Assembly (NCBI GenBank): GCA_006503535.1 | Contig: QYRS01000003.1 | Location: forward strand, 3,906,001-3,970,000 | DNA length: 64,000 nt | Direction of reading: 5' to 3' | From: Arthrinium phaeospermum | Lineage: Eukaryota > Ascomycota > Sordariomycetes > Amphisphaeriales > Apiosporaceae | Shown here: one piece after another, positions 25,313-52,906 of the stretch | How the letters are laid out: each line of letters opens with the position of its first letter | How positions within the stretch are numbered: the stretch's first letter is position 1 | The notes under the pieces: model-generated | Seen by the model: the letters and a program-made list of their open reading frames with translations, nothing else | Told to the model about the DNA's origin: nothing | Databases searched by the model: none | Made by a program: the position numbers and the translations under genes

Positions 25313-27178
25313 ATGGCGTCCAGGTTCCTGGACGTCTCCGACATAAGCAATACAACCCTTGCAACCGCAATTTTCGGCGCCGTGTGTCTCTCTTTCCTTC
25401 TCCCAACCAACACCGGCTGTCGAAACTCCATGCCGGCATTTCAGAGCTAACACTCTTCATAGATCACCACTTATGCCTTGACGCGAGCTATCTACCTGCT
25501 CTACTTTCACCCGCTCTCCCACTTTCCGGGCCCGCGACTCGCCGCCGTCTCCAACCTCTGGTATGCCTACCACTGGCTCTCCGGGCGATGGCCCTGGACG
25601 GTCGAGAGCGCCTTGCGCAGGTACGGCCCCGGGGCCGTCCGGATCGCGCCCAACGAGCTGGCCTTCTTCACGCCTCAGGCCTTCACGGACATCTATGCGC
25701 CGCAGCACAAGAACCTGGAGGACTTCGTCAAGACCGACTTCCAGAACCGCGGCAAGGACCTCGGCGGGCTCATTTGGGAGGAAGACCCCGTGCGGCATCG
25801 CAGCGTGGCCCGGCAGATCGCTCCGGCTTTCGGCAGCCGGTTCCTGCGGACCTTGGAGCCCGTCGTGCACGAGCACATGGACTACTTCGTGACGAGAATG
25901 AAGAAGCTCTCTTCGAGCCAAGAGACCACGGGCGTGCCGCTGGTGAAATGGACCAATTGGTTGGCAATGGATATGGCGGCAGACTTGGCGTGGAACGAGA
26001 AGATGCACCAGATGCGCGACAGTAAAGCCCTCCCTATGATCATCCCAAAGCAACGGAATTTTCCCGTGTATCACTGACCACGGCCAATAGTGAAGGATTC
26101 AGTTAACCTTGATGTTCTACTCAGCTTCAACTCTTTCGCGACCGTCCTTCAGGTGTTCAAGCGGTTCCCGCTCATCCGCCCGCTTCAATACTTGTTTGCG
26201 CCCTTTGGCAAGATCACGCTGTTTTCCCAGATGGAGAAGGCGACGCGAGATAGTGTGATGAAGCGTATTGGTATGGTACCCTCTCGTTGAAACTTGAGCT
26301 GGAATCGCTCTTTGCTGTGTATTTCTCTTCTGCTGGATAAACTACGAGGCGACCTCAGACACTAACACAGATGTTCAATAGACCAACGAGGCCGTACGGA
26401 GCACCCAGACTACTTTGACTACATCCTCCCAGTAGATGCCCCATTACCCACAGACGAGAAGGAGCTCCTTCATATAGGCTCCGTCGCGTTGCAAGTAATG
26501 TTTGCCGGCTGGGGCCCTATGGGAGACTTGTTCTACGGCGCCCTCGTGCTTCTGCTCGAGAACCCCGAGACGCACCAGCTTCTTACCAAAGAGATCCGGG
26601 AGACTTTCTCAGAGTACGAAGAGATCATACAGGGGCCAAGGCTGACATCTCTGCCTTACCTGCACGCCTGTATCGAAGAGACGCTACGCATGCTCCCAAG
26701 CAACAATACGGGTCTGCCACGGATCAGCCCAGGGGCTATGGTAGATGGCCAGTACATCCCTAAGGGCGTGAGTGCTGCTTTATAACTTCTCTCAGGAGTA
26801 TGCCTGGTATACTGACACGTCAAGCCACAGACACACGTACAATCCTGCATCTGGGCGTTGGCACGCCATCCGGACTACTTCCACCAACCACTCCACTTCC
26901 GGCCTCAAAGATGGCTGCCTGCTTCCCATCCACGTTACGACCCAGCATTCGCCAATGATCACCTCAAGAGCCTGTACCCTTTTAGCCTCGGCCCGAGGGT
27001 CTGCATGGGGCGAGAGACGGCGTGGACGCAGGCGAAGCTGTTCCTGGCCAAGGTCCTCTGGTCATTTGATGTTGTCGCGGTAGAGGGGCAGAGGGTCGAC
27101 CTGGAAAGGGATCTGCTGCACTACGGCTTCTTTGAGAAGCCCGAGATGCATGTCAGGTTTCTGCCCGTGTCACGATGA
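25313..27178 (+). CDS. Cytochrome P450 (P450 2) with atypical I-helix
   Basis: Five exons, 25313-25381, 25463-26021, 26091-26270, 26382-26767 and 26831-27178, give 513 residues, normal for a fungal P450. The first exon is a 23-residue membrane-anchor segment. Exon 2 has the fungal hinge YFHPLSHFPGPRLAAVSNLW. ExxR is ETLR at about 369-372. The heme loop is FSLGPRVCMG with Cys near 456. The I-helix segment is QVMFAGWGPMGDLFYGALV at about 307-325. The usual AGxDT/AGxET acid-alcohol pair is absent, replaced by AGWGPM. That Thr/Asp pair delivers protons during oxygen activation, so a non-monooxygenase or unusual reaction is possible. Architecture otherwise resembles isotrichodermin-hydroxylase-like fungal P450s. 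Substrate is unknown. Confidence 0.9.
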
Positions 27179-27261: not shown

Positions 27262-27840
27262 CTAATGCATGTTATGTGACATTCTAAGCACCGAATTGCC
27301 ATGTTCGTTTTCACTATCGCGGCACATGAAACGGATCGGTTTCGTCTTGATTTCCGACAGGATGCACAGCAGCGGCGTCCACACTTTATGACTCGCAGCG
27401 TTCACGTCCAGTCCCGCGCCCAGAAGGAACTCGAGCATGTCTTCCTCTCGCATCCCGGCGGCGGCGCAGTGGAGGAGGGTTTTGCCGTGCGCGTTCCGTA
27501 GCTGGATGCTGCCCTGGATGTCGTCGGCTTCGTAAGAGACCCTGGACAACAAGACCGCCACGGCCTTGTCGCACCACGCCCAAGTATTCACCTTCAGCGC
27601 CCCCTGCTTCTCGTTCGCGCTCCAGCTGTCCCAGACACGGAGAAAGTAGGCCGTCACCTCTGCCTGGTTATTGCGGGCTGCGACCGGGTTCGAGCTGGTC
27701 TGGGGTCCAGGCGGACACTGCTGAGATGAAAGCGTCCCTCGGGCCGACGAGCCGCCACAAGACGCGCACCATCTGCTATCGGCTATATTGGGTCGTGGCC
27801 GGGAGCGGGGTGAGCCGAGATCGCACGAGTTCTGCAGCAA
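27262..27840 (-). pseudogene. Ankyrin-repeat gene remnant
   Basis: An open frame carries one convincing ankyrin unit, NAHGKTLLHCAAAGMREEDM followed by LEFLLGAGLDVNAASHKVWTPL. The frame begins without ATG; its only in-frame ATG codons lie inside the repeat. Composition upstream is mixed. It may be the 3' exon of a decayed ankyrin gene or a fragment left by rearrangement. I cannot find partner exons within the next kilobase upstream. Confidence 0.4.
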
Positions 27841-29885: not shown

Positions 29886-30356
29886 TCACTCGTCGGTATC
29901 GATCACATCCTTGAGAAACTTATAAAGCGCGTTGTTGATATCAATCAAATCACCAATGGGCAAGTCGAGCAGTATCCGGGGAGGCTTTTTATGTAAGCCG
30001 TATTTGCAAACGTCCTTGACCCCGTTGATAACCATAAAAAGGCCCTCCTCCTGGCCACGTGTGGACCCAGCGAAGATAGCGGTGTCAACAGTACCTCGAT
30101 CATTATCCTGCGCTCGCAAAGCTTTGCGGTAGTTGCCCATGATATGTCTAGGTATGATGGCTAGCTTAGCATAGACGCTGTCGACTGCATCATACATAAC
30201 GATGGATTGCAGCACGTATCGTAATTCTTCGATGGAGGTCGTGTCAAATGACAGAGCATTCAGAAGTTCGCCGTTGGTGTCCATCATCCGAAGTCGACGA
30301 TCTGCAACGCTGGGATGGATGTGGTCCAGGACACCCCTCAGTTCGAAAACATCCAT
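29886..30356 (-). CDS. Array copy 6: internally deleted member of the local paralogous family
   Basis: An intronless frame encodes 156 residues from MDVFELRGVLDHIHPSVADR. The N-terminal motif IHPSVADRRLRMMDTNGELL and the next block NALSFDTTSIEELRYVLQSI align with the start of the full-length copies. The sequence then jumps directly to the C-terminal block IIPRHIMGNYRKALRAQD, and ends PIGDLIDINNALYKFLKDV. About 220 central residues are missing relative to 373-381-residue copies, and the frame is kept. It may be a short functional variant or a decaying copy. It is the most downstream gene of the array. Confidence 0.6.
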   Translation of the reverse strand: MDVFELRGVLDHIHPSVADRRLRMMDTNGELLNALSFDTTSIEELRYVLQSIVMYDAVDSVYAKLAIIPRHIMGNYRKALRAQDNDRGTVDTAIFAGSTRGQEEGLFMVINGVKDVCKYGLHKKPPRILLDLPIGDLIDINNALYKFLKDVIDTDE

Positions 30357-31215
30357 GGTGTACGACTGACTGCAAGAGGCCTGGCAAACGTGGCCAGAAC
30401 AGCTATTCAGCTCCATGAGAGACGAAGAATTCTTGAGCCAAGAAGTTTCAAGGGGCTCGAATATCAGGATGGGTAAACCCTCGATCACAACTCACTTCGG
30501 TAATCGGGGTTTCCTTTCCTTGCGAGAGGTTCTAGTTGTAGAAGGACACGATTGAGAGGAGCTGGCGAGGCTGGCTCAAAAAGGCTATTTGTGCGTAATT
30601 GCAGATCTGGGTAGAAAGAGGGTCGGATCGTATTGATGTTTTGCAACAGTGGTAGATGGGATCCAAGTGTGGATGTTGGTAGCAGCTCCAGAACTGGAGG
30701 TTTGCAGGCCAGATGTTGGTGCAGAAGTGAAAACATGATGGTTGATTGAATTCCGGAAGGTGCATATTTGTTAATTGGTAATATTCGGAAGGAGCTTTGG
30801 CAATTGGATGGTATAAATGGAATTGGGAAAGGAAGCCACTGAACACAGGTACCTAACATAAGTTCGCAAGAGACCCACATTCAATCGGGCTTCTGTTGTA
30901 TCCCCAACCATATTTCTAGAGAAGAAACACAACAAGATATGGGGGCTCAAAGCATTGGGGAACTGTAATATTCATCTGCGGCCCAGTTCTGTCATGGCTA
31001 TGGATTCTAGTATACAATATGAACGAAACGCATCCGAACGTCATCTGCAGTTCTCAATGACCCCGTGCCAGAATATCGTCCCCAGATGCCCCGGCACGGC
31101 TCCGTACTTTTCAACCGCCCTTTTCCTGTCCACCTGGGCGACATGGCCCGCCACAAGAGCGAAGACCGTGGCCTTGTTGCAGCCGCCAGTCGAGAAGAAT
31201 CCGTAACCAATGCTC
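30357..31215. promoter_or_regulatory. Spacer between array copies 5 and 6
   Basis: This 859-bp spacer upstream of copy 6 contains its promoter and the 3' UTR of copy 5. Overlapping minus-strand frames are open here, but they lack family motifs and an ATG context. They are probably 5' UTR sequence. Confidence 0.35.
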
Positions 31216-32337
31216 TCAAGTGTAAACTCTCTTGCCCTCGGGGGACCATCCTTTGCTTTCGAGGTAATCGATGAGCGCATGATGGATACCAATCAGGATA
31301 TCGGTGGGCGCCTCGAGCAGGGATTTGGGAAGCATGTGAGGTCTCAATTCGTATTGAGGGTGCTTACATTTCATGCAAGCAGAGTCTACGTCGTAGATGA
31401 CGTCGAACACAGCATCTCCGTTGTTCTCATCTTTAGACAACTCGTAGATTTCGGATCGGAACTTGTTAGGATCGAAGCCCTGGATGTCGTCTCCATACTT
31501 CAAGGCCGCGTGGTAGTTCCGGGTGACATATCGCGGTAGCTTACCCAATCTAGCATAGGCGTAGTCTACGGCATCGGAAAGAAGGTTGACTTTTTCAGGT
31601 TCGGCTTTTTGAAGGATCCGAGATAGCTTGGCAATGTACTCCGGGTCCAACTTTGTTCCGACCTGGCTATCCTGTGCCTCTCCCAGAAACTCACCGATAA
31701 GTTTCATTCTGGGGTAAAAATGGAGCCGGAACTCGGAAGAAGAGCTGAGGATAATCTTCGTAATGTCCAAGTTGCAGCGCGAAACCAAGCGGGCTAAGTC
31801 CGACGAAAGGAGCGTGGTCTCGGTGCTGTAGGTCAAATGGAGGTACATGACCTCCCTCTCTTGCGGCGTCATGTTCTCGACCATCCAGTCGATGTTGTTG
31901 AGAGCAGCTCTCTTATTCAATTGAGGCTTACTGTAGATGCGGGCCAACCTGTCGAAGATCTCGGGTTGTTTCTCGCGGAGGTTCTCGAATGTGGGGTGCT
32001 CAAGGATCTTGGCGTTGTCCTTGCTCATCTGGCGCCAGCAAGCAAGACGGAGTTCCTCGTCGGTGACGGGCGTGTAAGTTTGCAAGAAGTCGATCATGGC
32101 TTGTGTGACATGCTGAGGAGTATCCCAGCATTTCTCGAGGTTCGACAGGGCAACTGTATATTGGTCGAATTCTTCATTGGCAATCTCAAAAAGTACGGTT
32201 TTGAGCGCTTTTGCATGATGATCAGTGAAGGGCAGAGCATGCAGCAACTTCGTGTCGGTCTTCAGCTCCCAAAGTCGTCGTGTGGCGACGCACGGATGGA
32301 GATTGTCCAGGATTGTCTTGAGATCGGAGGAACTCAT
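31216..32337 (-). CDS. Array copy 5: intact member of the local paralogous family
   Basis: An intronless gene of 373 residues starts at MSSSDLKTILDNLHPCVATR. Family blocks are all present: LHPCVATRRLWELKTDTKLL near residue 14, HALPFTDHHAKALKTVLFEI, LGKLPRYVTRNYHAALKYGD in the last third, and MLPKSLLEAPTDILIGIHHA followed by LIDYLESKGW. The protein is predicted mostly helical, with no signal peptide, membrane segment or Cys motif, so it is probably cytosolic or nuclear. I recognise no named family. Its closest visible relatives are its neighbours, which makes local duplication the likely origin. Confidence 0.75.
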   Translation of the reverse strand: MSSSDLKTILDNLHPCVATRRLWELKTDTKLLHALPFTDHHAKALKTVLFEIANEEFDQYTVALSNLEKCWDTPQHVTQAMIDFLQTYTPVTDEELRLACWRQMSKDNAKILEHPTFENLREKQPEIFDRLARIYSKPQLNKRAALNNIDWMVENMTPQEREVMYLHLTYSTETTLLSSDLARLVSRCNLDITKIILSSSSEFRLHFYPRMKLIGEFLGEAQDSQVGTKLDPEYIAKLSRILQKAEPEKVNLLSDAVDYAYARLGKLPRYVTRNYHAALKYGDDIQGFDPNKFRSEIYELSKDENNGDAVFDVIYDVDSACMKCKHPQYELRPHMLPKSLLEAPTDILIGIHHALIDYLESKGWSPEGKRVYT

Positions 32338-33241
32338 GGTGGCGTGAGATGACTGGACAAAAGTTAGATCCGGAATTCGATACAGGGTTCTAGATGGAAC
32401 CAGAATTGAGAATTGGACTGTGCGAAATATGGAAATCGTGAAGTCGGAGAGCTCCAATATGATGTGGTGGGAGAATGGGTAAAGTTGCACAGCTGACCTT
32501 TGGAGACTGATGGTGGTTCTGTAATGTGACGCGCAACTTGCGAGAGAACACTTGCATAAGACGAGCTTTCAAAGGCTTGATGAAAAGGATAGATCGTAGA
32601 CTGACCGCAGCCTGAAGATCTTGGTGATCAGAAGGGAGTGGTGAAAAATATCAGTATTAGTGCTTGTGTAGGATGATGTCAGATTTTGTGTTGGCTTTAA
32701 GAAGAGGTGATGCATGAGAAGGGCTACAAGAGAGAAAACAAGTTTTTGGATCTTCAATTAAAAACAGGAAGAGCAGTTGCTGAAGTGAGCCGGGTGCAGG
32801 AGGGCATGATATGAGCGGGTGCTATCAATCTTAGATGTTGTAGAACCCTCACATTTTACTGATCTCTTGTTTGGGTATCAGCACATAATTCTTCGCGATT
32901 AATACGTTTCAGGATATGTTTATGTAGTGTGACTTTCGCAACATGTCAACGCCCATCATGGTATGGCGATTGGCGAAATGCAAGAAACCAAGAAAATAAA
33001 AATGCATTGACTTGTTCAGCCTTTTCATTGTTGGGGCCGTTATACCATGGCAAGCCAAATTATATACCCAAGGCAATACCACACGTCTGTTCCAAAAGTG
33101 AGGTATCTGGTCTCATTTGCCTCGTGCATATAATTAATCATCTAAAGCCTTGCTCGTACCGTCTGTTCGTAAACGCTCCATCTACTCCCTTGCGCTTGTA
33201 GAAACCGACCCGATCATTGTAGGTAACAACACCATTGTTTG
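32338..33241. promoter_or_regulatory. Spacer between array copies 4 and 5
   Basis: This 904-bp spacer is AT-rich and carries the upstream region of copy 5. No coding frame shows family motifs. Confidence 0.35.
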
Positions 33242-34348
33242 TCATGGTTGAACCCGCCCAGGGGACATCAAAGATTCCTCATGCTTACATTCGATCTCCT
33301 GGAAATAGCTAATTATCGCGTTGTTAAGATCGAACGCCACATCTATTGAAGCATGGAGCAGGCTGTTTGGTATCAGGCGGTGCTCATCTGAGTTCCGCTT
33401 GTCGCAGGCGCGCGCCAAGTTCTTGAGCTACCGATCGAGTCCGGCCTTGTCGATAATGCCATTTATGCCATACCGGGCGAAACATTGTTGGACAGCGGCT
33501 GTGGCCCTCTCTATGACGTGCTTCTTCTTCTCGGGTTCGAATCCCTTGCTGCCGCCTGTTGACGACAGCTTTCCCTTGGTGATTACGTTGCGGAAGGTAC
33601 GCAAAATGGCGCGCTGCATCTCGCACGGCATCTCGCAAGCGGTGTCAGTGGCGGAACTGACCGTACCTTGATCCTTGGCGCTGAGAGACCCGGGGATGTC
33701 GCAGAACAAACTGACGAATCTGAGGCCGTTGTCGCTGTCACATACGTATTTCTTCATGTAAGAAACAATTTCCTTGAGATCCGAGCTCGGCTGGCCGCAA
33801 ATTATCAAGGGGGAGGCTTGTCCAGCGATGTTGCGCTCGCAGCAGCGTTCGGCGAGCCGGACCATGTCGGATCGATGTAAGCCTCCCTTGGGATACTCGA
33901 CCATGTCGTAGTACAAGCCCTGCTTGCGAGTCAGGTTCTTGCACTCGCTGCTAGTAAAAGCCAGGTTCTCGAGACGACCTTCGACTCGTTGTGATATCTT
34001 CTTCTTCTTCTTCGTGTTGACACCAGGGCCACGGGATTCAAAGATGTTGGCCTGCTCTGAGGACCAGTTGCGGTGGCACACGTCTCGGAGCTCGTCGGTC
34101 GATATGGGAGCGGCATCACGCAAGATGACCATGACGGTCTCGAAGGCGGCGCCAAAACAGGCTCCGCGAAGAAGGAAACTGGTAGATGCCTCGTTACGGT
34201 CGAAGGTCTTCTCGCGACGGCATTTGTAAGGCAGCAATTCACGGAGGGCGTCAACATGATAAACGTTGAAAGGCATCACTTGGATAAGCTTGGGGTTGGT
34301 TTCAAGCTCCCGAATACGGCGCAAGGCCACGACGGGACTCAGAATCTC
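33242..34348 (-). pseudogene. Array copy 4: pseudogene of the local paralogous family
   Basis: The frame reads SPVVALRRIRELETNPKLI, then QVMPFNVYHVDALRELL, matching the N-terminal blocks of the other copies. No ATG precedes this region in frame; the frame extends upstream only by a GTG codon. Three residues of the HP motif appear deleted. A TAG at 33430-33428 stops the frame. Past it the same frame resumes with LKNLARACDKRNSDEHRLIP, then NSLLHASIDVAFDLNNAIIS, the family C-terminus, and ends at TGA 33244-33242. The centre is diverged, with a Lys-rich run near TKKKKKISQR. Loss of the start plus a nonsense codon makes this a pseudogene unless readthrough occurs. Confidence 0.7.
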
Positions 34349-34880
34349 CAGAGCAAAACAGTACGAGCTGTACGAAGGTAGAGCAGGAGCAGTACCGGGG
34401 TAGAAAGCTACAGTGAGTTGAAGAAGATGCTTGCCTTGAAAAGCTCCAGGGATCACACGTCTAATCCACTTCCTATCCTCAAGCTGTTGATCTAGTGGCA
34501 CTAACCCGTTGTGGCTGTTTCATCAGAGCCACCTCCTTCCCGATTGTAGTCGTCGACAGATGATGAACACTTCTTCACACATTATAGCAATTCGCGAACA
34601 GATAGCATTAGGAAACGCAACAAGACTCGTGTGTTCATTGAAGTAACCAATGTATTACTATGGTGTAGCCAGGTCTCCGTCTCTGCGTAGCAATACGGGC
34701 GAGACTGTCTTACTATGCAACTTATGACGCAAGCTTACTACCTGTCCCCATATGCCTGCTGCTCGGATGCTAATCAACCAAAAAGCGCTGCCCATATCCT
34801 TTTACGTAGGTTCCACCGTATCGTACACCCTAGAACCCGGCCGCAAGCACCATACTCGCAAGCAACAGCCAGTTGCCCGA
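34349..34880. other. Spacer between array copies 3 and 4
   Basis: This 532-bp spacer separates the degenerate start of copy 4 and the stop of copy 3. Nothing recognisable is present. Confidence 0.35.
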
Positions 34881-36026
34881 TCAGGGAGCAATATGGTAGA
34901 TCAAGTCCCCCTCGCGAGTCCAGCCCTTCTTCTCAAGATAGACCATGAGCGCGTAGTTGAGGTCGATCAACAAGTCCACGGGCGCTTTGGACAGGCTGGC
35001 GGGGATCATCCGGTGCGTGCTGCCGGTGAAGCGCGCGCCGCATTGGACATCGAGGTCCTCCAGGATCGGCTGTACTTGGGCCTTGTTCACGGCTCGGTAA
35101 ATCGCGGCAACGACTTCGCTCTTGGCCGCCTGGCTGTATCCCCAGCCGCCCCGCTTCAGCGCCATGAGGTAGTTGCGCGCGATGTGGCGCGGCAGGCCGT
35201 GCAGCCGGGTGCAGGCCTCGTCGACGACCTCGAACAGGGTCTTGGAATCCTTGGCGTCGAGCTGTCGGATGAGGCTGTACAGCTCGGTGAAGTGGTCGCT
35301 GCTCGTCGTGCGGGGGGCCTTCTCCATGCAGCGGATTACCTGTCGCAGCTTCGACGAGGGCGGGGACTTGGCCTTGATCAAGAAGATGGCATACCTAGAG
35401 ACCTGAAGGCCACAGCGCTTGGCCAAGTCGAGCATGTCTGCGTCGTGGTAGCCGGACTGGGAGCCGCTCGGATTGTTGGCGATCAGGTAGAAGTAAAGGG
35501 CTTCTCTTCGAATCTTGCCCATCCGGAGATCTTCCTTACTTGAGTGCTTGATCATGCCGTCGACGATCCTAAGCAGCTTCTTCTCGTCGCGCTCGCTTCC
35601 GGCAAAGTGCTTGTCCAGCTTATCACCGACGTCCTGGTATGCCATACGGCTGGCGAACAAGTTGTTTTTGTTGAAGAGCTTGGCGGTCTTCTTGTTCAGG
35701 CAGCGGAGGCAGACGTTTCGGAGCTCGTCGTCCGTGATCGGTGCGGCAGCTTCGAGCACGCCCTTCAAGATGAAGAAGGTCTCGTCGGGCCAGTTTCGCT
35801 TCATGAGGCGGGCAGTCAGAGCCTTTATGTCAACTTTGCCGCCGCCAACGATCTCCTCGAGAACCTCACGCAGGGCGGAAACGTGGTCGCCATTGAATGG
35901 CATAGCGCGCAGGACCTTGGGATTGGTATGAAGCTCTCGAATGCGGCGCTTGGCAATGAGAGGGTGCATATGCTCCAGGATGTCGGTGAGTTGCTCTGTC
36001 TTGAGCTTGACCATAGAAGTAGCCAT
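34881..36026 (-). CDS. Array copy 3: intact member of the local paralogous family
   Basis: An intronless gene of 381 residues begins MATSMVKLKTEQLTDILEHM. It has the best-preserved family pattern: MHPLIAKRRIRELHTNPKVL, RAMPFNGDHVSALREVLEEI, then AAPITDDELRNVCLRCLNKK, a helical centre, LHGLPRHIARNYLMALKRGG, and MIPASLSKAPVDLLIDLNYA followed by LMVYLEKKGW. The blocks align in order with the last two thirds of the four-exon protein at 38764-41205. A TATAAAT-like sequence lies about 250 bp upstream. No targeting signal is visible. Function is unknown. Confidence 0.8.
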   Translation of the reverse strand: MATSMVKLKTEQLTDILEHMHPLIAKRRIRELHTNPKVLRAMPFNGDHVSALREVLEEIVGGGKVDIKALTARLMKRNWPDETFFILKGVLEAAAPITDDELRNVCLRCLNKKTAKLFNKNNLFASRMAYQDVGDKLDKHFAGSERDEKKLLRIVDGMIKHSSKEDLRMGKIRREALYFYLIANNPSGSQSGYHDADMLDLAKRCGLQVSRYAIFLIKAKSPPSSKLRQVIRCMEKAPRTTSSDHFTELYSLIRQLDAKDSKTLFEVVDEACTRLHGLPRHIARNYLMALKRGGWGYSQAAKSEVVAAIYRAVNKAQVQPILEDLDVQCGARFTGSTHRMIPASLSKAPVDLLIDLNYALMVYLEKKGWTREGDLIYHIAP

Positions 36027-36776
36027 GATGGACGGTTTATGGGTGTAACGTTGGTAGAGGTGGGTTTGTTGGAGGTAGAATTGTTGCGTAGGAGTGAGGC
36101 CTGGAGATCAAGCGTGATGTAGATCGCAGAGAGTGAAAGACAATGAGAAAGAGAGGCACGAGGTAGCAAGACACTGCTCTGCTGAATGTCTGGTTGATGC
36201 TTTACCAGTGGTGATTCCGAAGAGAGTGTGAGCAGAGAAGAGGATGGAAATAATGACTGGTGGTGGAAGTTGACGGATTTATAGGTCCACTCAACACCTC
36301 AAGCTGGGACGGGTGATGAGCAATTGAATAATGTATGTAGACCCAATTGAATGCAGAAAACCTGGCAAACCCACAGCAGCTACTTCACATGTTGATAAAT
36401 CCCCGTACTGCCAATGTGAAGTAGCCTATCCATGTATTTACTAATAACCAAGAAAAGAGTACTACAGGCAATGGAGCGAAATAGCAACCAAAAATGTGTT
36501 GAAATAGTAGATAATGGACCTGATCGACATCCCATCCTTGTCAACCATGAGATATCATGTGGAAATATAGTAGTGTTCTATAGCTATGTAGCGAACGTGG
36601 GTTTCCGTATCTGAAAAGTAGTCGTGTGTATCATGCCTTTGTCTCATGCAGTTCATTCCGTCGTAATTCCTCCGAGGTCGAAGCCCCATGTGTATCCCAA
36701 TCTTCATGTATGGCGCTTCCCTCCGTTTTTTTTATATGAGTGTAGCCCCTCAGGGCTACTCCGGGTATCCTATTTC
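36027..36776. promoter_or_regulatory. Spacer between array copies 2 and 3
   Basis: On the minus strand CTATAAATC lies at about 36276-36284, some 250 bp upstream of the copy 3 ATG, and could be its TATA box. The remainder is AT-rich and non-coding as far as I can see. Confidence 0.4.
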
Positions 36777-37913
36777 CTATTTCCAACTCTTGAAGATCCA
36801 CTCCCCCTTGTAATCCCAGCCCTTGTCCTTGAGGTACTCGATCACCGCGTTGTTGAGGTCGATGACGAGATCCCGGTTATTGACATCGAACAGGCAGGGC
36901 GGCACCAATCGGTGCTTGTCGAAGCCGGAGTAGCAGGCATGGACAAGGCCCTTAAGCAAGGGCTGAACTTGCTCCTGTCGGTTCGCAAAGTGGTCGCTGA
37001 CGATGTCTGCCTCGAGGTGTCGCCACGCCACGTGGAGGTCGTCGGGGTCCCGCCATAGCGCGTCGAGGTAGTTCTGGGAGATGAACCGTGGCATATAGAG
37101 CAGCCGCGCGTGGGCGCGCTTGATGGCCGTAAAGACCATCTCCATGTCTAGTCGGTCCAGCCGCTGCAGGAGCTCGTACAACGTCGCCGTGAAGTAAGGG
37201 TCCATGCGTTTGTCGCCACCGGGTGTAGTGGACCACCGGAAGCGCTTCAGGAAGGCGACGATCTTCTTGACCGGAGGGGACTGGCACTCGAAATCCAGGT
37301 GGGGGAGAGCTTGTACGGCAACGTCGGCGTCGCAGGCCGTGGCCAATTGCAGCATTTGAGAAGGGAGGTAGGGCGGTCTGACGCCGGCGTCCGATATCAA
37401 CGCGTAGAACAGCGTCTCCCTCTGAGACGGATTCAGCTTGTGTATGATCCGGTTGATCATCTTGAGGACGAGCCTATCACTCGTATCCTTCTTATGAAGT
37501 CGGAACTGCAGATCCAAGGTGTCATGGTAGCGCTCGAAGCCGTTGTTGCTGTCGCTCATGAACGCCGGGTGCTTCAGGACGCCGAGCGTCTCCGCGTCGA
37601 GGAAGCGAAGGCATACCAGATGCAGCTCCTCGTTGGACACGATCGCCGCAAGCGAAGCTTGGAGGCATTCGACCATGGCATCGATGGCCCGGTCGGGCCA
37701 CTCGTGGAGGTGGAGATCTGCGACCTCACGGACCCCGAGTCCGCCGTGCCTGACGATCAGCTGCAGCACGTGGCGCAGCTCGCCGAGGTAATCTCCATTG
37801 AACGGCAGAGCCTTGAGTAGCTTGACGTCGGTCGCGATTTTGGCTAGCCGCTGCTCGGCGACGGCGGGGTGCAGCCTGTGCAGTATCTCCTCGAGGGCCT
37901 TGTGGTTGGCCAT
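36777..37913 (-). CDS. Array copy 2: intact member of the local paralogous family
   Basis: An intronless gene of 378 residues starts MANHKALEEILHRLHPAVAE. Blocks in order are LHPAVAEQRLAKIATDVKLL, KALPFNGDYLGELRHVLQLI, SNEELHLVCLRFLDAETLGV, LLYMPRFISQNYLDALWRDP, and LVPPCLFDVNNRDLVIDLNN followed by AVIEYLKDKGW. It is rich in Leu and charged residues and should be helical. It lies next to the four-exon member, with 850 bp between them. No catalytic motif is evident, so a binding or scaffold role is more likely than an enzyme; that is inference. Confidence 0.8.
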   Translation of the reverse strand: MANHKALEEILHRLHPAVAEQRLAKIATDVKLLKALPFNGDYLGELRHVLQLIVRHGGLGVREVADLHLHEWPDRAIDAMVECLQASLAAIVSNEELHLVCLRFLDAETLGVLKHPAFMSDSNNGFERYHDTLDLQFRLHKKDTSDRLVLKMINRIIHKLNPSQRETLFYALISDAGVRPPYLPSQMLQLATACDADVAVQALPHLDFECQSPPVKKIVAFLKRFRWSTTPGGDKRMDPYFTATLYELLQRLDRLDMEMVFTAIKRAHARLLYMPRFISQNYLDALWRDPDDLHVAWRHLEADIVSDHFANRQEQVQPLLKGLVHACYSGFDKHRLVPPCLFDVNNRDLVIDLNNAVIEYLKDKGWDYKGEWIFKSWK

Positions 37914-38763
37914 CTTGGAGATTATACCGAATGAGCCTCGGAATTATGAGTCGTCATGCTATGCACAAGTGACAGAGGAGCAGAGGTTGACGCCCCCGCG
38001 ATTGACCGGAATGACGGAGATCGCGGCTGGGGGAAATTATCCATAATTATGGAAAAACGATAGTTGGACGATTGAGGTTAGGTGGTGTGGATGATGTTCC
38101 CAAGGAAGGTTTAGGTTGGTAGAGATCCCGTGAAGCTCATTGGGGAGGCATCGAAATAGTCAAGGCCTTGCCAGCGTGGCCGTGGAGTCTCAACCAGCTT
38201 TGGGACGCAAGTTTGAGCAACATGGTGAGGCCGGGTCCGGGTGGAGCAAATGCACATATACAATTGGCCAGAATGTGCCTCTGGCGCTTACACGATTGCC
38301 GCACATGTTCAACGTCGCCTCGGCGAAATACTGCAAGCGAATCTTCAAGGCGAGTTGCTATAATGAGTGTAGACATATTCCTCGTAATCATGGACGGGTT
38401 TAGGTCAAAAGCAGCCTTGCAGACGATTTGTAACATCGAACCGAGCGCTGACAGAAAAACAAAATGCAAAAACACAGTTAATAGTAATTTACAAACTTGT
38501 GTCAAGAATCAACTGAATTGATCGAGGGGATTATCTATTAAGGACTCAAATGATCTCCTATCTCATTGAGTGTAAGCCATCCTATTCTGGCTCAGATCCT
38601 CTTGACATGCCGGTCCTGGCAGAATCCCAAAACTTCTCGCACGAGATTTCTCTTGATCTCGCAATTTATAATACACTATGTTACATTGATCTGCCTAAAG
38701 GTTGCGTCAGTATTGTTGTTTCAACGCGTGAGGAAGGATAGTACACACCTGCTATCCGAATCC
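37914..38763. promoter_or_regulatory. Spacer between array copies 1 and 2
   Basis: This 850-bp spacer carries the copy 2 upstream region and the copy 1 3' UTR. No supported coding frame was found. Confidence 0.35.
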
Positions 38764-41205
38764 CTACTCCAAATCCTCGACCGAGTCAGTGAACGGGGGA
38801 GGGTCGCGCCCATCCGCCGGCTGGAGTGTAATGATCTGGTCCTCCAGACCATGCATCTTCGGATGCTTAACGATCATGTTATTGAGCTTGATGAGCTCAA
38901 GGAAAGACAACTCCTTCACCGCATCGGGAACGGAGTAAGTGCCGTGCTCGGCAGTCTCAAGGGCCTCCAGGTAACCCAGGAAGAGGGACTCAACGACGTC
39001 GGATGCCCGATCCGGATCGAAGGCACAAGCAGGAACGAGCGAGGCAGTGAAATCGGCTCGATTCCAGCGGGGCTTCGCGACCAGAATCCGCCAGTTGCGG
39101 ACGACCTGCTGCTGGATAACACGAACTTGGTTATCGGCGCTCGAAATCTTGTCCCGGAGCTGCACATAGCTCTGCACGGTCAAGCCCTGAACTTCTCGAA
39201 GCAGAACAGCGGTGTTCTGCATGATACTGTCGAATTTGTCCGTGTCCAGGACAGCATCGGCCGATTTCAACAGGGGAACGAGCCAGCGAGGCCACGACCC
39301 GGCGCTCAGATTGTGGCGGAAGCCGGTCAGCGACTCCGGCGTCAAGGCCTTGGCCAAGTCGATTGCTCGCTCCAGAGACTGCATACCGTTTGTCCGGGCT
39401 GTCAGAGTCAAATACAGATCTTCCCGCAGACGAGGCGTGGTTGCGCGCTTGACGAGCTCCTGCGTGTCGTCCAGGAGCTGGAGGCGTGACTCTGAGTCCT
39501 GCTGGTCCAGGATGCGCTTGATCTGGATGTAGCGCATGGTAAACGGGCGGTCCTTATAGACCGCAGCACCTAAATCGTGTTAGCAAGCATGTTGTGAGGC
39601 TGGATGGATATAGACGGTATACGTACCCTCGAGGCAGTCAATGTTGTTCGCGGTGAGTTTTTCGAGGCAAGCGAACAGGAGCTCCGCGAAACTGGTCGGC
39701 CGGGGAGTCAAGAAGTCTTCAACGGTCTTAACCCACTGGTTGCTGGGCTCGACCTCGATGAAGTTGAAGAATGCCGTGCGGAACTCGCGTCCCTTCTCGA
39801 CATCTCGGAGAATTGTGACAAGTGCCCGGGCTTGAGCTTGGGTGGCTCCAGGCAACAGCTGGCTGGGCATTTCCTCTCCGCGCAACTGGATGAGACGACT
39901 CCGCGCCATGTACAGGGTCAGGTCTGTAAGCATTGTATAGACCCGTTGCCAATTGAACTGCGAATCGGTGACAGCTTCTGTGGTGGTTAGCTAAGACATC
40001 CTGAGAAAAAGGAAAGAAAGGGAAGGATCGTGGGTGGAGGAAATTATATATGTGTGTGTGTTCGTAAAAGAACGAGGGGAAAATGAAGTCGAACATACCA
40101 AATTCCTGATTAGCTGACGACCGGGTTCGTTCCTGATCAATAGCGGCGGCTTGGATCCGGTTTTGCTGAATGATGGCTTGGGCCTGGCTTTGCTCCATTG
40201 CCATTTGGATATCATCCTGGGCAAACCGGACAGGGCCTCGCTGGGTCTGCTGGCCTCGCTGAATAGCAGCCAAGATTCGCTCCTGATCAATAACCTCTTG
40301 ACGCTTGCTTTCCTCAATTGCGTTCTGGAGAGCATCCTCAAACCCATCTTGGACATCGTCTTCCTGGTGTTGCTGGCCACTCTGGATTGCAGCCAAGATG
40401 CGTCCCTGCTCGATTGCCTGTTGGTCGTTGCTCTGCTCAATCGCGGCTTGAAGATTATCATCAGCAGGCTCATCTTGGGTATGGGCTCCCTGGTTTTGCT
40501 GGCCTCGCTTGATGGCATTCCAGATTCGCTGCTGATCGATTGCCTCTTCCTTCTTGCTTTGCTCGATTGCCGATCGGATTTGATTGGAATCAAACCCTTC
40601 TGGAATCTGGCTCTGATCGATTGCTTCCTGGATCTCGTCTAGCATGAAGCCATCTTGGATGTTGCAACCCATCGGTGTGCGGGTGGACAGGAATTGGATC
40701 TGTAGTGTTGTTCATCGTTAGCATGTTTAAGTGACAAAAGTAGGATTTGCTGTGTGCCATGAAGCAAGCAAGCAAGTAACCAAGATGCCAAACACAAGTG
40801 GTACTGCTAGCACAAGCTGCGCGCGGGGGGAGAGAAGGGAGAGGAGAGGAGGGAGTGGATGAAGAGGAGGGAGGTGATGAAGGTGATGAAGGTGATGAAG
40901 GTGATGAAGGTGATGAAGGTGATGAAGGTGATGAAGGTGATGAAGGTGATGAAGGTGATGGAGAGGAGGGAGAGGAGGGAGTATGATAAATCAAACCTGC
41001 TTACCTTTGCCTTGATCTTGGGGTACTTGTCAGCAGCGACCTCAAGGGCGACCTTGGCGGCGTAGTAGTTGAAGAACAACAAGAGGAACGTGTAGCCAGG
41101 GATGGTCTGCTTCGTGACGTCGATGATGAGGAGGGTGAGAAGCATAGCAAAGATGCCAAGGAGGGAGAAGTCGGAAAGAGGCGACCAATCCGTGGTGAGA
41201 GCCAT
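38764..41205 (-). CDS. Array copy 1: membrane-anchored protein with five UIM-like repeats fused to the family domain
   Basis: Four exons, 41205-41005, 40699-40099, 39977-39627 and 39569-38764, join in phase to give 652 residues. Residues 14-50 are hydrophobic (LLGIFAMLLTLLIIDV, then YTFLLLFFNYY), one or two membrane segments. Residues 87-260 hold a repeat of about 40 residues. Each unit has a ubiquitin-interacting-motif-like core (EIQEAIDQS, QIRSAIEQS, NLQAAIEQS, ALQNAIEES, DIQMAMEQS) and a second element like QERILAAIQRGQQ. From about residue 275 the sequence follows the neighbouring intronless copies: MARSRLIQLRGEEMPSQLL for the HP block, VVRNWRILVAKPRWNRADF for the RNY block, VPDAVKELSFLELIKLNNMI for the C-terminal block. 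Ubiquitin binding at a membrane is inference. Confidence 0.75.
40876..40956. repeat. 9-bp minisatellite, nine perfect copies, inside intron 1 of array copy 1
   Basis: GATGAAGGT is repeated nine times without error. It lies in the 305-bp first intron (40700-41004) of the UIM-repeat gene, so on the sense strand it reads as a C/T-rich tract. Purine-rich sequence (GAGGAGGGA) flanks both ends. Confidence 0.9.
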
Positions 41206-41239: not shown

Positions 41240-41450
41240 TACTGGAGAAGAAGCTGAAGGTGATGAGGCTAGCGATGGCGAAGCTAGCGATGATGGAGTT
41301 GATGTCGATGAGGTCGACGTTGATGAAGTTGATGTTGATGCAAGTTGATGTTGATGCAAGTTGATGTTGATGCAACTTGATGTTGATGGAAGTTGGTGAT
41401 GATGAGGTTGATTGCGATGGAGCGATCGAAGTTGATGAAGCTTTCAATGA
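41240..41450. repeat. Degenerate GATGTT/GATGAA repeats upstream of array copy 1
   Basis: Imperfect trinucleotide-like repeats, such as GTTGATGTTGATGCAA recurring three times around 41330-41385, lie in the presumed 5' UTR or promoter of the gene starting at 41205. They resemble the motif of the intronic minisatellite and probably expanded by slippage. Confidence 0.6.
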
Positions 41451-42282: not shown

Positions 42283-43485
42283 TCAGTGCCCCTCATCCGC
42301 GGCATGTGTGGTATCGATAGCCACAACCTTGGCGGGCTCGACAAACGAGCCGTTGACGGGGCTCGTCAGTCCTCCAGCCGTGACCACGTAGAGCATGTGG
42401 CTATCCGAGTCGGTTCTGCCGAAGACGGCCGCGTTGGCGCCCGCCATGGTCTCTTGATGCTGATCGCCCGCCACCACTGCCGACATGCCCGTGTCCTGAT
42501 TGTAAGCGATCACCGTGTTGTTCGGGTTCGTGGTGATCCACAGGGTCCCGTTCTCGGCAATGGCGAAATCGTCCATGAACGTGATGGGCATGGAGACCAC
42601 CGTCTCCACGGTCACATTGGTGGAGTTGTTGTTGCCGCTCTCGAGAGTAGCAGTAAACATAGGACCGCTGAAATCAACCGTAGTAGTCGTATCAGGTAGG
42701 GAATCTGAAGATGAAGGAGTGGCAGGGACAGCGTAGCCGTCCTCGTCGATGGCCATACGGTACATGGTGGCGGCGAAGCTGTTGGTCCAGTAGACATAAC
42801 CATCGTGGATCTTGATGCCGTTGATGCCCATCAGGAAGGGCCATCCTTGTACGGGGGCCATCTCGGGGACAGCAGCTACGATGTCGATTTTGCCCGAAGT
42901 CACATCGACTCGGAGAAGAGAGCCCATGGAGTCGGCGACGAAGATGACACCCGGCCTATCCGGGACGCTGGTGAGCCCATTAGGATAGACGTTCTCAGGC
43001 AAATTCAGCAGCTTAGTGAAGGAGGGATGCTTGCCACTCCAGACGCAGTCAATCTTGCAGGTGACGGCAGCGTCGGCCATTGAGACCCGCCAGAGTGAGA
43101 AGGTGCCGAAGATGGGCGTGGCCGTGCCGGTGAACTTGCCGCCCGCTACCACAAAGACATCGGGAGAGGCCTCAGTGATACCCAGCACGCCAGTCATGTC
43201 GGGAAACTCAAAGAGCAGAGTGACCTGGGGCTCTTTGGATTGAATCGCCGACAGGGAGTAGAGCTGAGGGGCGGGCTGGAGCACAGTGAACAATAGATCG
43301 CCGTTGGAGCGAGCAGCGACGTTCTCGATCCATGTGCCGTTCTGCTCAAACTGGAATAACTGGCGAGAGGGAAAGGGCAAATGAGCCATGTTGACGTTGT
43401 CGATGGGGATGCTGTTGGGGATGACATCGGCGACTGCCAGACCCAAGGTCTGGTTCAGCAGGATTGCCAGAACGAGGAAGAACAT
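42283..43485 (-). CDS. Secreted SMP-30/TolB-like six-bladed beta-propeller protein
   Basis: One exon encodes 400 residues. A signal peptide, MFFLVLAILLNQTLGLAVAD, directs secretion, and several N-x-S/T sites (NGT, NNST, NVT, NGS) could be glycosylated. Blade-like repeats are visible: ENVAARSNGDLLFTVLQPAP, PNGLTSVPDRPGVIFVADSM, LMGINGIKIHDGYVYWTNS, MDDFAIAENGTLWITTNPN. This pattern (NG-x-x-x-D-x-YW-TN) is that of SMP-30/gluconolactonase-like fungal proteins. Some relatives act as pericyclases (hetero-Diels-Alderases) in tropolone-sesquiterpenoid pathways. No such pathway is visible here, so function is open. Confidence 0.85.
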   Translation of the reverse strand: MFFLVLAILLNQTLGLAVADVIPNSIPIDNVNMAHLPFPSRQLFQFEQNGTWIENVAARSNGDLLFTVLQPAPQLYSLSAIQSKEPQVTLLFEFPDMTGVLGITEASPDVFVVAGGKFTGTATPIFGTFSLWRVSMADAAVTCKIDCVWSGKHPSFTKLLNLPENVYPNGLTSVPDRPGVIFVADSMGSLLRVDVTSGKIDIVAAVPEMAPVQGWPFLMGINGIKIHDGYVYWTNSFAATMYRMAIDEDGYAVPATPSSSDSLPDTTTTVDFSGPMFTATLESGNNNSTNVTVETVVSMPITFMDDFAIAENGTLWITTNPNNTVIAYNQDTGMSAVVAGDQHQETMAGANAAVFGRTDSDSHMLYVVTAGGLTSPVNGSFVEPAKVVAIDTTHAADEGH

Positions 43486-45332: not shown

Positions 45333-46400
45333 ATGGGTGTCAACAAGGCCCTGATCTTCAAGAAGGTCCCCGACGGCTTCCCCGTTCCCGGCGAGCACCT
45401 GACGGTCGAGGACGTCGGCTTCGACGCGGAGGCGCCCGCGCCCAAGGGCGGCATCACGGCCGAGGTGCTGTACGCCTCGTACGACCCGTACCTGCGGGGC
45501 CGCATGCGCGAGCCCAACACCAAGAGCTACTCGCCGCCCTTTGAGCTCGGCAAGCCCCTGGTCAACGACACCATCGCCCGCGTCCTCAAGTCGGACGCGG
45601 CCAACTACCAGCCGGGCGACCTCATCAAGACCTTCGGCCCCTTCCAGGAGTACATCACCATCGACCTCGGCGCCAAGGTCCAGAGCGTCTACAAGGTCGA
45701 CCCGGCCCAGAAGCTCGACAACCCCCACGGCCTCGAGCCGGGCTTCTTCCTCGGCGCCCTCGGCATGCCGGGCCTGACGGCCTACTCGTCCCTGCTCGAG
45801 ATCGGCAAGCCCAAGAAGGGCGAGACCATCTTCGTCAGCAGCGCCGCCGGCGCCGTCGGGCAGGTCGTCGGCCAGGTCTCCAAGCACCTGGGCCTGACCG
45901 TCATCGGCTCCGTCGGCTCCGACGAGAAGCTCGACTTCATCACCAAGGAGCTCGGCTTCGACGGCGGCTTCAACTACAAGAAGGAGAGCCCCGCCGACGC
46001 GCTCGCGCGCCTCGCGCCCCAGGGCATCGACATCTACTTTGAGAACGTGGGCGGGGAGCACCTGGCCGCCGCCCTGGACGCCATGCGCGAGGACGGCCGC
46101 GTCGTCGTCTGCGGCATGATCGAGGGCTACAACTGCGCGCCCGAGCAGCGCTACGGCGTCAAGAACCTGTTCCAGCTCGTCGCCAAGCACCTCACCATGC
46201 GCGGCTTCCTCGTCGGCCAGCCCGACATGGGCCCCAAGTACACCAAGGAGCACCAGCAGAACGTCCAGAAGTGGCTCGCCGACGGCAGCCTCAAGGCCAA
46301 GCTCCACGTCACCGACGGCATCGACAGCGCCGCCGAGGGCTTCCTCGGCATGCTCAAGGGCGAGAACTTTGGCAAGGCGGTGCTGAAGATCAAGGCTTAA
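45333..46400 (+). CDS. NADP-dependent alkenal / leukotriene B4 12-hydroxydehydrogenase-type reductase (zinc-free MDR)
   Basis: One exon encodes 355 residues with very GC-rich third positions. The protein belongs to the zinc-independent medium-chain reductases that reduce alpha,beta-unsaturated aldehydes and ketones with NADPH. Visible motifs are the N-terminal YASYDPYLRGRM, the substrate/cofactor loop LGALGMPGLTAYSSL near 141-155, the nucleotide-binding FVSSAAGAVGQVVGQ near 167-181, and GIDIYFENVGGEHLAAALD. There is no structural-zinc Cys cluster, as expected. Role is probably detoxification of reactive carbonyls in the cytosol. A TATA box stands 240 bp upstream. Confidence 0.95.
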   Translation: MGVNKALIFKKVPDGFPVPGEHLTVEDVGFDAEAPAPKGGITAEVLYASYDPYLRGRMREPNTKSYSPPFELGKPLVNDTIARVLKSDAANYQPGDLIKTFGPFQEYITIDLGAKVQSVYKVDPAQKLDNPHGLEPGFFLGALGMPGLTAYSSLLEIGKPKKGETIFVSSAAGAVGQVVGQVSKHLGLTVIGSVGSDEKLDFITKELGFDGGFNYKKESPADALARLAPQGIDIYFENVGGEHLAAALDAMREDGRVVVCGMIEGYNCAPEQRYGVKNLFQLVAKHLTMRGFLVGQPDMGPKYTKEHQQNVQKWLADGSLKAKLHVTDGIDSAAEGFLGMLKGENFGKAVLKIKA

Positions 46401-46506: not shown

Positions 46507-48776
46507 TCAACCCAAGCAAATCGTCTTTTCTTCTGCATCTTGCAGCCACTTCTGCTGTCTGAGAGGGATCGGATCCACTGATCGTGATATCTCGATAGCG
46601 CCATTCGAAAGATCGGTAGAGTGAAACCCACAGGTTGTTGAGGCGTAGCATTCGTGACGTGACTCTATCGGAGCAACTTTTACCAGCCCCACGCGCTCGA
46701 AATGACCACCGGTCTCTTTCATCACAAGCAATGTTGCCTGTTGAGCTGTGGAATTCTGTCCTTCGCAACAGGGAATATATTCTTCGTGCTCTTCTAGTAA
46801 GATGGCTGGATGTGGAGTCATCATCTCCACCGTTTCGTCCATATGTGTGGCACAGACTAATTGCTCCGTGTCTGTGACAGGCAGAATGGCCAAGAATTTG
46901 GGGGGTCGTTCCCTTGAAAAACGCACGTCCACTGATTTAACGTGCTCCCATGGGATGAGTGTCACCTCTGTAACTTCGGATCTCAAATACAAGAATCTCG
47001 GCGGAGCATCACTGCTGCTGAGATTCTGGTAAACTCCCTCGAGAGGGATCTTCAGCTCCTGATCGAGGTACACCATTGATAGCATCGGTCTGTACTCAAT
47101 GGGGAGGTGAACCCAACCATCCCAGCCGGTCCACGACCAGCTAGGGAAACCAGAGCGCCGCCGCGAAGGCTCCTCGGTTTCTTTCACCCAGCCTAGATCA
47201 ATGTATAGCTTCCCGAGTGTTTGTTCTTGTAATATTGGAACACCCCACAGGTGATCCTGGGTGGTACCGCTCTCGCTGTAGTCGTTGAGTACGCCCAGGA
47301 AGGCCTGAAGTGAGTCGGAATCATGTGTCAACATCCTTTTGCTATATTCTGTGATATGCGTAGCAATTTGTTGGTGGTGGAGGGTACCGTCGTGAACTGG
47401 ACCCTTGATGAAGAATCGGGGAGCGTCGAAAGGGCTCAACTCAATGCCATGGGCAACTGATTCCGGAAAGATCATCTCGTCGCACACAAAGCATGTCTGA
47501 CTATTGGAGAAGAACAACCGGTGGTGGGAGAGATATCCTTCCTGGTAGGTCCATCCTCGCGTGGCCCATTTGGTGGACCGGACATAGTGAAGAGTGGAAG
47601 GGGGCATATGTCGGAGCGTGAAAGATCCAACAGTGAAGTCCAGTAGCGGCTTGCGTCTGACGCTGACTCCTGGTAGCCCATCGTCGGCGCTGTCCCCTGT
47701 TGCGGCTATAATGACAATGCGGGCTTGTTTGTACACTTGATCCATCCTGTTGATGATGTGTTCTTTGTAGGCACTATCTTGATCAATGCACTAGCAGTCT
47801 CACTTTAGCTCGGGGATCTCAGTCTGACACAAATTGATCAACTGATACTTACATGTCTATCGACCCAGAGGTAGCGGTATCCGAGTGCCAAGGTCACCTC
47901 GATACTATCGCGAACGACAGCAGGGAAAATAGTTCCCTTCTTTTCAGAACTCATGGGATCCATGGCCGTTGTAGAATCACCCCAAACGTAAGACAAAGCC
48001 ACGTACTCGGAGTGGTGATCGGCTTCGACTACTCGCTTTGTATGGCAGTCAATGAAGCGAAGCCGTAAGCCCGGATTTATGCTCTTTAGACCCCGACAGG
48101 CCGAGTGAGTGGAGCGACATGTCTTCTCGGCCTTTTGTATATAACCAAAGTGGGCGAGTTCTCCAAGAAAACGTATGGGCTCATCTTTTGGGGACTGAAC
48201 CTTTTCGACACATTGGGTATTGTTTCCGAGCCCAGCCTCGAGTAGTACAAGGAAGCCATTCTCAGAAATTAGATAGAATTCATCCGAGCCGTATGCCACA
48301 AATGGGCTGTAATCAATGTAAAGGACTACACATGGTTCCGAGTTCCCAATGTGCCACAATGTAGATGCCAACACGTACCCGGGAAAGTCGAGCGCTATGG
48401 TTGCCACAGCGCGGCAGATTTGGCATTTTGACGTGCACAACGTATCTTTAGTCTCATCCGGCAAAAACTGACGAACCCGTACACGTCCACGGCCAGCGTT
48501 GTGGGTTAGTCGGATAATTTCGTCCCAATTGATTGCCTCGCATGTTGTGCAGAGTGAATCCTTGTCCTGGGACGTTTCCGGCAGTGGTAAAAGATCCATG
48601 TGATCTAGAATTCCTGTTTGTGGTAGTAGTTCTTGCGCTGGTTGGATAGTTGATTGACGAAACAAGAGATTGGATATCCATGCAAATAGTAACGATGGCA
48701 GATATCTTGGGTTTGGATCAGAGCCTGAAATGATCGTTGCGGCTGAGAGGGGTTTAATGGCATTAGACATCAACAT
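46507..48776 (-). CDS. Heterokaryon incompatibility (HET) domain protein
   Basis: Two exons, 48776-47853 and 47790-46507, splice in phase 0 and give 735 residues. The HET domain spans the intron: EYVALSYVWGDSTTAMD, then AVVRDSIEVTLALGYRYLWVDRH, joined to CIDQDSAYKEHIINRMDQVY, ARIVIIAATGDSADDGLPGV and WATRGWTYQEGYLSHHRLFF. HET domains are distantly related to TIR domains and trigger cell death when incompatible hyphae fuse. The N-terminal 250 residues include a Cys-containing segment (CTTCEAINWDEI; CTSKCQICRAV) common in these proteins. The C-terminal part has FPSWSWTGWDGWV. It lies convergent with the reductase gene, 106 bp apart. Confidence 0.93.
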
Positions 48777-50235: not shown

Positions 50236-50889
50236 ATGCAGTACTCCACTTCTCTCACCGTCGCGGCCCTGTTCGCCTCGCTCGCCGCCGCCGTCCCGAC
50301 CAACCACCACACCTTCGTGACGGACAAGCCCGTCATCGAGCTTCCCTCTGATGCCGCTGCCGCCCCCGCCCCCGTCGAGGCCCGCCAGAACGGCGGCGCC
50401 TGCTTCATCACCGGCAACGCCCAGCTGCCCGCCGAGGTCTCGGCCGTGGTGCAGCAGCTGGGCCCGAAAGTCAAGTGCAACGCCGCCGTCAAGACGCTGG
50501 GCGGCGTGCCGGACGTGACGTCGGGCGGGCAGACGTACAGCCAGATCGACTTCAGCAAGTCGGGCAAGTCGGGCCTCGAGTTCGCGCTCGACACGTTCGT
50601 GACGGCCGACTGCATGGCCGACAGCAACCTGCAGGCGTTCGAGGAGGCCCTCGACGTCTACACGGCGACCGAGGCCGGGCTCCGCAGCAGCGGCGGCAAC
50701 TTCAACACCATCAAGGCGCCCAAGTTCTTCCTCGCCATGCAGATCGCCCGCATCAAGACGGCGCAGGGCAACGCGCCCACCGACGCGGCTAACCAGGTCG
50801 ACCATCTCGCTGAGAAGGTCACCAAGAACGCCGGCCGCGTCGACCAGTCGCTCATCAACAAGGTTAACGCCCTGGCCAAGCAGACTTAA
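50236..50889 (+). CDS. Conserved-looking fungal secreted protein, unknown function
   Basis: One exon encodes 217 residues with strong GC3 bias, suggesting high expression. A signal peptide, MQYSTSLTVAALFASLAAAV, is followed by a Pro/Ala-rich pro-like segment ending EARQNGGACF. The mature part has Cys near 56, 76 and 119, and the block SGGQTYSQIDFSKSGKSGLE. The C-terminal half is helical (FFLAMQIARIKTAQGN, then KVTKNAGRVDQSLINKV). I do not recognise an enzyme signature. A cell-wall or extracellular role is inferred from the signal peptide alone. Confidence 0.85.
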   Translation: MQYSTSLTVAALFASLAAAVPTNHHTFVTDKPVIELPSDAAAAPAPVEARQNGGACFITGNAQLPAEVSAVVQQLGPKVKCNAAVKTLGGVPDVTSGGQTYSQIDFSKSGKSGLEFALDTFVTADCMADSNLQAFEEALDVYTATEAGLRSSGGNFNTIKAPKFFLAMQIARIKTAQGNAPTDAANQVDHLAEKVTKNAGRVDQSLINKVNALAKQT

Positions 50890-52538: not shown

Positions 52539-52906
52539 TTTTGCCGGGGGGCAGCGGCGCTGCGAAAGCTGGGCTGGGGGCAGTGCAATGAAGAAGGAAC
52601 ATTCGGAGAAGGTAGACGAGGGGGCGACTGGGATGAGTTTTATATGTTGGCGTAGGACAGAAGTGGGGTCGGACGCCCAGCTTACATGGATGGTGGCCGC
52701 CACCAACACGCTGACCTCTTTGTCGTTTGAGCCACGGCTGAACGGTACGGAACATGGGTAGCTCCAGCAAAAATAGAAATGAGATTTACACAAGATCCTA
52801 CAGCCGCTTCCAATAAACATAGTAACCTCCAATACTAGATAAACAATACACAAAACAGAAATCAATGTACACAAAAGAAACATCCCCCTACCCCATTCTA
52901 CGCGTC
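52539..52906. promoter_or_regulatory. Upstream region of the ankyrin gene
   Basis: The two flanking genes are in tandem on the minus strand. This 368-bp space holds the ankyrin gene promoter and the next gene's 3' UTR. No clear element was identified. Confidence 0.35.

Follow-up and report, generated by a model that had tools for sequence, protein, structure and literature searches.

Organization of the array

Six co-oriented loci (c1–c6) lie on the minus strand between 29,886 and 41,205 of the window, that is, of the whole 64,000-nt stretch of DNA analysed here. The question they raise is whether such a row of highly divergent neighbours descends from one gene and, if so, whether it serves recognition or conflict, as the first-pass annotation had supposed from its apparent birth and death. 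Common descent was borne out: mutual homology of c1–c5 was clear in every pairwise shuffle test, and c6 is, on sequence comparison, a divergent member of the same family (see below). A family profile, which contained c2, c4 and c5 themselves, singled out c1–c5 when run against the window translated in six frames (1,567 fragments). When the 48.4-Mb, 19-contig assembly holding the window was searched, c2, c4 and c5 gave matches at the array locus only, and exon 4 of c6 matched only itself. With relatives as queries, c6 was the sole match of P0012, and P0007 added one chance-level match elsewhere (E 8.5). Since this search scores the best candidates only, a very diverged member could escape it. 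Altogether, we consider it almost certain that the family is an old tandem array traced, where the source is named, only to Apiospora, with a domain predicted to be all-helical, one member carrying a hydrophobic N-terminal segment and ubiquitin-interacting motif (UIM)-like repeats, and very unequal divergence between related genomes.

The mixed states of the loci were likewise confirmed. Three are intact, single-exon copies, namely c2 (31216–32337, 373 aa), c4 (34881–36026, 381 aa) and c5 (36777–37913, 378 aa), and c6 has four exons. The internally deleted copy c1 (29886–30356) retains a 156-aa in-frame ORF, in which the N-terminal block is joined to the C-terminal part, and the profile matches it in one frame at model positions 1–55 and 252–355. 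The pseudogene c3 (33266–34351) has a TAG at 33428–33430, lacks an in-frame ATG before the first block and has lost the PR/NY block. The deletion in c1 and the decay of c3 add loss inside the array. In c2, c4 and c5, a strongly hydrophobic stretch is absent throughout (best 19-residue hydropathy 0.86–1.20), and hydropathy gives no hydrophobic N-terminus that would suggest a signal peptide.

The copies also differ in how close their nearest relatives are. The closest relative returned for c4 was the A. marii protein P0001 (PG991) with 89% identity; compared per 50 residues, the two were 78–98% identical with the minimum at 51–150, and no strong hypervariable patch was seen at this resolution. 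This closeness of c4 to Apiospora proteins points to an Apiospora species, or a very near relative (Ascomycota, Apiosporaceae), as the host. Identity of c2 to P0008, P0009 and P0010 was 52, 50 and 55%, respectively. The branches of c1, c3 and c5 were long in the tree (1.35–1.97). c1 grouped weakly with P0007 of A. aurea (83/87), and its grouping with the c2 type was not rejected by the test (p 0.15).

Relatives, domains and predicted fold

Protein searches with family members returned 12 relatives, and the nine that carry a source name all belong to Apiospora. These searches require shared 5-residue words, thus distant relatives, or genes of the c5 or c3 slot elsewhere, can escape them. The family had been thought to be unnamed, and this view held: none of the 12 relatives has a precomputed Pfam domain, and 13 family members scanned with Pfam and NCBIfam gave marginal, scattered rows only. 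PF06985 (HET) gave no row in c2, c4, c5, c6 or the scanned relatives, using the same library that detects the neighbouring HET gene. NACHT or NB-ARC rows were absent from the Pfam scans of the 13 family members and three c6 sequences, and the family members scanned yielded no domain for cell death or signalling. No description of the family was found among the best-matching titles and abstract openings of papers that deal with genomes of Apiospora, with orphan families, with UIM/incompatibility or with allorecognition in fungi. Neither of the two contrary outcomes looked for, copies without similarity to one another or a strong resemblance to a family already characterised, was seen.

The helical nature proposed at first pass agrees with the AlphaFold2 model of c4, which is all-helical (pLDDT 85.7, pTM 0.81) and for which Foldseek found nothing significant in the PDB or in a viral library. 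The model of P0011, a relative of c6, reached pLDDT 63.7 and pTM 0.40; it is no independent test of homology, because its input alignment A7 (12 of 15 rows, without P0004, P0007 and P0010) contains relatives of c6 next to the family rows.

The fused member c6

The four-exon model of c6 predicts a 652-aa protein and has canonical GT/AG introns. Exon 1 (41005–41205) encodes a hydrophobic N-terminal segment at about residues 8–36, exon 2 (40099–40699) five UIM-like cores, exon 3 (39627–39977) the diverged N-terminal block of the family and exon 4 (38764–39569) the remainder of the family domain. Two annotated Apiospora proteins, P0011 and P0012 (646 and 634 aa), match 99–100% of the length of c6, therefore the fusion is not an artefact of the first reading. 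Their identity to c6 is 87 and 62% in local alignment and 88 and 69% in the multiple alignment; the relative from PG985, a genome labelled A. marii, is 88% identical to c6.

The C-terminal half of c6 aligned with the family profile over 270 columns in a profile–profile comparison (E 3.3e-6, probability 88), and 14 columns were invariant across 12 rows spanning the c6 group and the single-domain group. In shuffle tests, exon 3 scored z 8.5 against c2, and exon 4 alone was not significant against family members.

Hydropathy detects one strongly hydrophobic stretch in c6, at the N-terminus, with a 19-residue peak of 2.3 at residue 13; the same peak is present in P0011 and P0012, and the segment is nearly unchanged between the three proteins. 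By this measure it is likely a membrane anchor. The core hydrophobic-xx-Ala-hydrophobic-xx-Ser is known from UIM proteins, Vps27 and S5a among them. The five cores of c6 exon 2, which lie in predicted helices, follow this pattern as I/L-x-x-A-I/M-x-x-S and partly alternate with RIxxAIxxGQQ. Shuffled sequences contained 0.04 such cores on average, and none of 2,000 shuffles reached five. P0011 and P0012 have five and four cores, respectively, so that the hydrophobic segment and the cores occur together in all three c6 sequences examined. Unlike Vps27 and S5a, c6 has no known accompanying domain that we could find, and a different helical domain follows its cores. As the Pfam UIM profile (PF02809) matched weakly (E 0.034) and in one of the three sequences, ubiquitin binding by c6 may be taken as a lead.

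Two repeats lie close to these exons: a 9-nt minisatellite, AGGTGATGA, is present in 9.9 copies at 40872–40960 within the 305-nt first intron, and a 16-nt repeat occupies 41291–41412, immediately upstream of the c6 start.

Slots and their turnover across genomes

Of the two trees used, the one for clade tests omits c1 and c3, the other includes both, and c6 is in neither; alignment A4 has 13 rows and omits c1, c3 and c6. The c2-type (c2, P0008–P0010), c4-type (c4, P0001–P0006) and c5 lineages separated in the tree, therefore the duplications are older than the sampled species. The high divergence ascribed to the array was upheld, and c5 is only 35% identical to its closest returned relative. 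Gene numbers, a proxy for position, suggest a shared order of conserved slots. PG996_003310/003312 and PG984_005660/005662 are c4-type/c2-type pairs and PG985_009445/009447 is a c4-type/c6 pair, which fits the order c6-c5-c4-c3-c2 of the window, where one locus lies between c4 and c6 and one between c4 and c2.

The occupants of these slots diverge very unequally. Between PG996 and PG984, the c4-type proteins (P0002/P0004) are 92% identical with a tree path of 0.07, whereas the c2-type proteins (P0008/P0010), two gene numbers on, are 50% identical with a path of 1.02. P0008 grouped with P0009 at 100/100 instead of with P0010. P0009 is presumed to come from the same third genome as P0006, which is 54% identical to the c4-type protein of PG996. 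The forced clades P0008+P0010 and P0002+P0006, which were picked after the identities had been seen, were rejected with p 1.6e-8 and 4e-49, respectively. In the free tree, the pairing of P0002 with P0004 had a support of 71/66, and the order of c2, P0010 and P0008/P0009 one of 51/14; the gene models of P0010 (297 aa) and P0004 (351 aa) appear shortened, by truncation or by a gap. Within the c4 type, c4 and P0001–P0004 share 66–92% identity and two further rows stand apart at 51–54%; between P0001 (PG991) and P0005 (PG985), both from genomes that bear the label A. marii, identity is 51%. The c6 relatives are 62–88% identical to c6.

As far as the sequences tell, the gene trees of the c4 and c2 slots are in conflict and slot occupants turn over unevenly, which lends cross-species support to the birth-and-death pattern seen at first pass. 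Old duplications, slots conserved by gene number and uneven turnover of their occupants are what the comparison suggests beyond that annotation. Long-lived alleles of the kind known from the Neurospora doc locus would fit the slot pattern; so would reciprocal loss among old paralogues, which accounts for the trees equally well.

Possible function of the array

The doc locus is the nearest working analogue of the array, the likeness being one of pattern and not of membership. As far as the available part of its description goes (PMC4831770), the doc-1/doc-2/doc-3 greenbeard locus resembles the array: its paralogues are linked and highly divergent, some have been deleted or duplicated, transmembrane segments are predicted for a few of them (DOC-1 and DOC-2), the taxonomic range is restricted, and deep lineages cross species, as they cross genomes in the array. 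The same part reports about 35% identity between haplotypes, trans-species polymorphism, DOC proteins of 828–920 aa and a phenotype tied to the locus by allele swaps (PMC4831770). In contrast, the array is known from sequence alone and comprises full-length single-domain proteins of about 370–385 aa and one 652-aa member. No DOC protein was among the results of the c6 search, which returned two Apiospora proteins only from the 7,994 best word-sharing candidates scored, within a length range that admits DOC. The het-B locus (Bh/Bp) of Podospora, according to the accessible portion of its report, also comprises neighbouring genes whose haplotypes diverge strongly and show trans-species polymorphism, and it makes use of a HET domain together with a lectin fold and a PII-like protein (PMC10890737); unlike het-B, the array gave no HET match in the scanned family members. 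HET genes, in the section available, are said to be frequently hypervariable within Neurospora and to show poor conservation when distant species are compared (PMC10197012).

We tentatively consider the array a polymorphic recognition or conflict locus with c6 as a partner, a serious possibility but one that falls well short of an even chance. Under this mechanism the most elaborate member, c6, would be anchored in a membrane, its repeats and helical domain facing the cytosol. The variable partners would be the single-domain paralogues, themselves cytosolic, which would bind c6, one another, or a protein of foreign or allelic origin, and mismatch or target binding would be read out via ubiquitin. 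Rare variants would be favoured, so that deep lineages persist and others die. The slot-specific turnover between PG996 and PG984 counts for this mechanism, as do the deleted copy and the pseudogene. The divergence of the two A. marii-labelled genomes at the c4-type slot also speaks for it, all the more as P0001 is so close to c4 and the PG985 c6 relative so close to c6. Further points in its favour are the conflicting slot trees with both forced clades rejected, the agreement in slot spacing, the hydrophobic segment and UIM-like cores shared by the three c6 sequences examined, and the like pattern at doc. Against it count that reciprocal paralogue loss explains the trees equally well, that c4 and P0001 differ by no strongly hypervariable patch, that the UIM profile match is weak and that the members scanned gave no cell-death or signalling domain. 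The HET gene nearby is no evidence for it, because the genome has at least 152 HET matches. We put recognition first since it makes the clearest testable prediction and not because its probability is higher; the odds of an ordinary orphan family that evolves fast are at least as good.

Tandem orphan families are common in fungi, and a lineage-specific one, whose duplicates drift and subfunctionalise under weak constraint and have no role in recognition, comes fairly near to an even chance. The tree conflict would then reflect reciprocal paralogue loss and uneven gene prediction. Besides the commonness of such families, the long branches of c1, c3 and c5, the one dead and one deleted copy and the lack of a domain tying the family to immunity agree with it; however, most c4-type and c6 sequences are conserved, hence constrained, and turnover is concentrated at certain slots. 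Alternatively, the family could consist of membrane adaptors linked to ubiquitin, with a role in housekeeping or stress peculiar to Apiospora; c6 would then be the functional ancestor and c1–c5 its shortened, freely evolving duplicates. The architecture of c6, kept whole in P0011 and P0012 with its hydrophobic segment and regular UIM-like cores, would suit this explanation, but we judge it quite improbable: the c4 type is kept about equally (89, 72–73%), which leaves c6 without a clear claim to be the constrained core, the UIM profile match is weak, and c6 relatives were returned from two genomes only, which is patchy for a housekeeping gene, even if split gene models could hide more. An effector-like family, intracellular or unconventionally exported and acting on plant hosts or rivals, would account for the fast evolution, apparent genus restriction and clustering; the large size of the proteins and the lack of a strongly hydrophobic stretch in c2, c4 and c5 make it very unlikely. 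Equally slight is the chance of a domesticated viral protein. RNA-virus nucleoproteins are all-helical and of similar length, and four of them were among the 50 viral-library rows listed for the c4 model, but these rows, obtained with that model only, are at chance level (E 1.1–8.4, query TM 0.13–0.18, rmsd 17–20), and the sequence searches with the family returned no viral protein.

In its most specific form, the recognition reading is unlikely: an undescribed fungal self/non-self or conflict locus that evolved within Apiosporaceae, in which a membrane-anchored, ubiquitin-reading helical c6 would act with slot-specific, haplotype-variable helical partners of a fold unrepresented among solved structures. 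If the slots do hold long-lived alternative lineages, the array would stand outside the HET/NLR repertoire as a new locus of recognition or conflict, found from its sequence alone, whose helical fold seems to be unrepresented and which may be read out via ubiquitin. Even without a recognition role, a clean, uncharacterised and apparently genus-restricted family is defined.

Neighbourhood of the array

Upstream of c6, a 400-aa ORF on the minus strand (42283–43485) with a hydrophobic start and no Pfam match at E 0.001 lies between the array and an alcohol-dehydrogenase-like gene (45333–46400). The HET-domain gene (46507–48776, minus strand), about 5 kb upstream of c6, consists of two ORFs, each with part of PF06985, and a probable intron between them. 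Ankyrin-repeat ORFs flank the array on both sides (20793–22217, 27262–27840 and 51136–52770, all on the minus strand). The plus strand carries two cytochrome P450 ORFs (10236–11414 and 25478–26077, the second just under the Pfam cut-off), a DUF7143 protein (50236–50889) and a fragment of a deuterolysin M35 protease (60844–61407).
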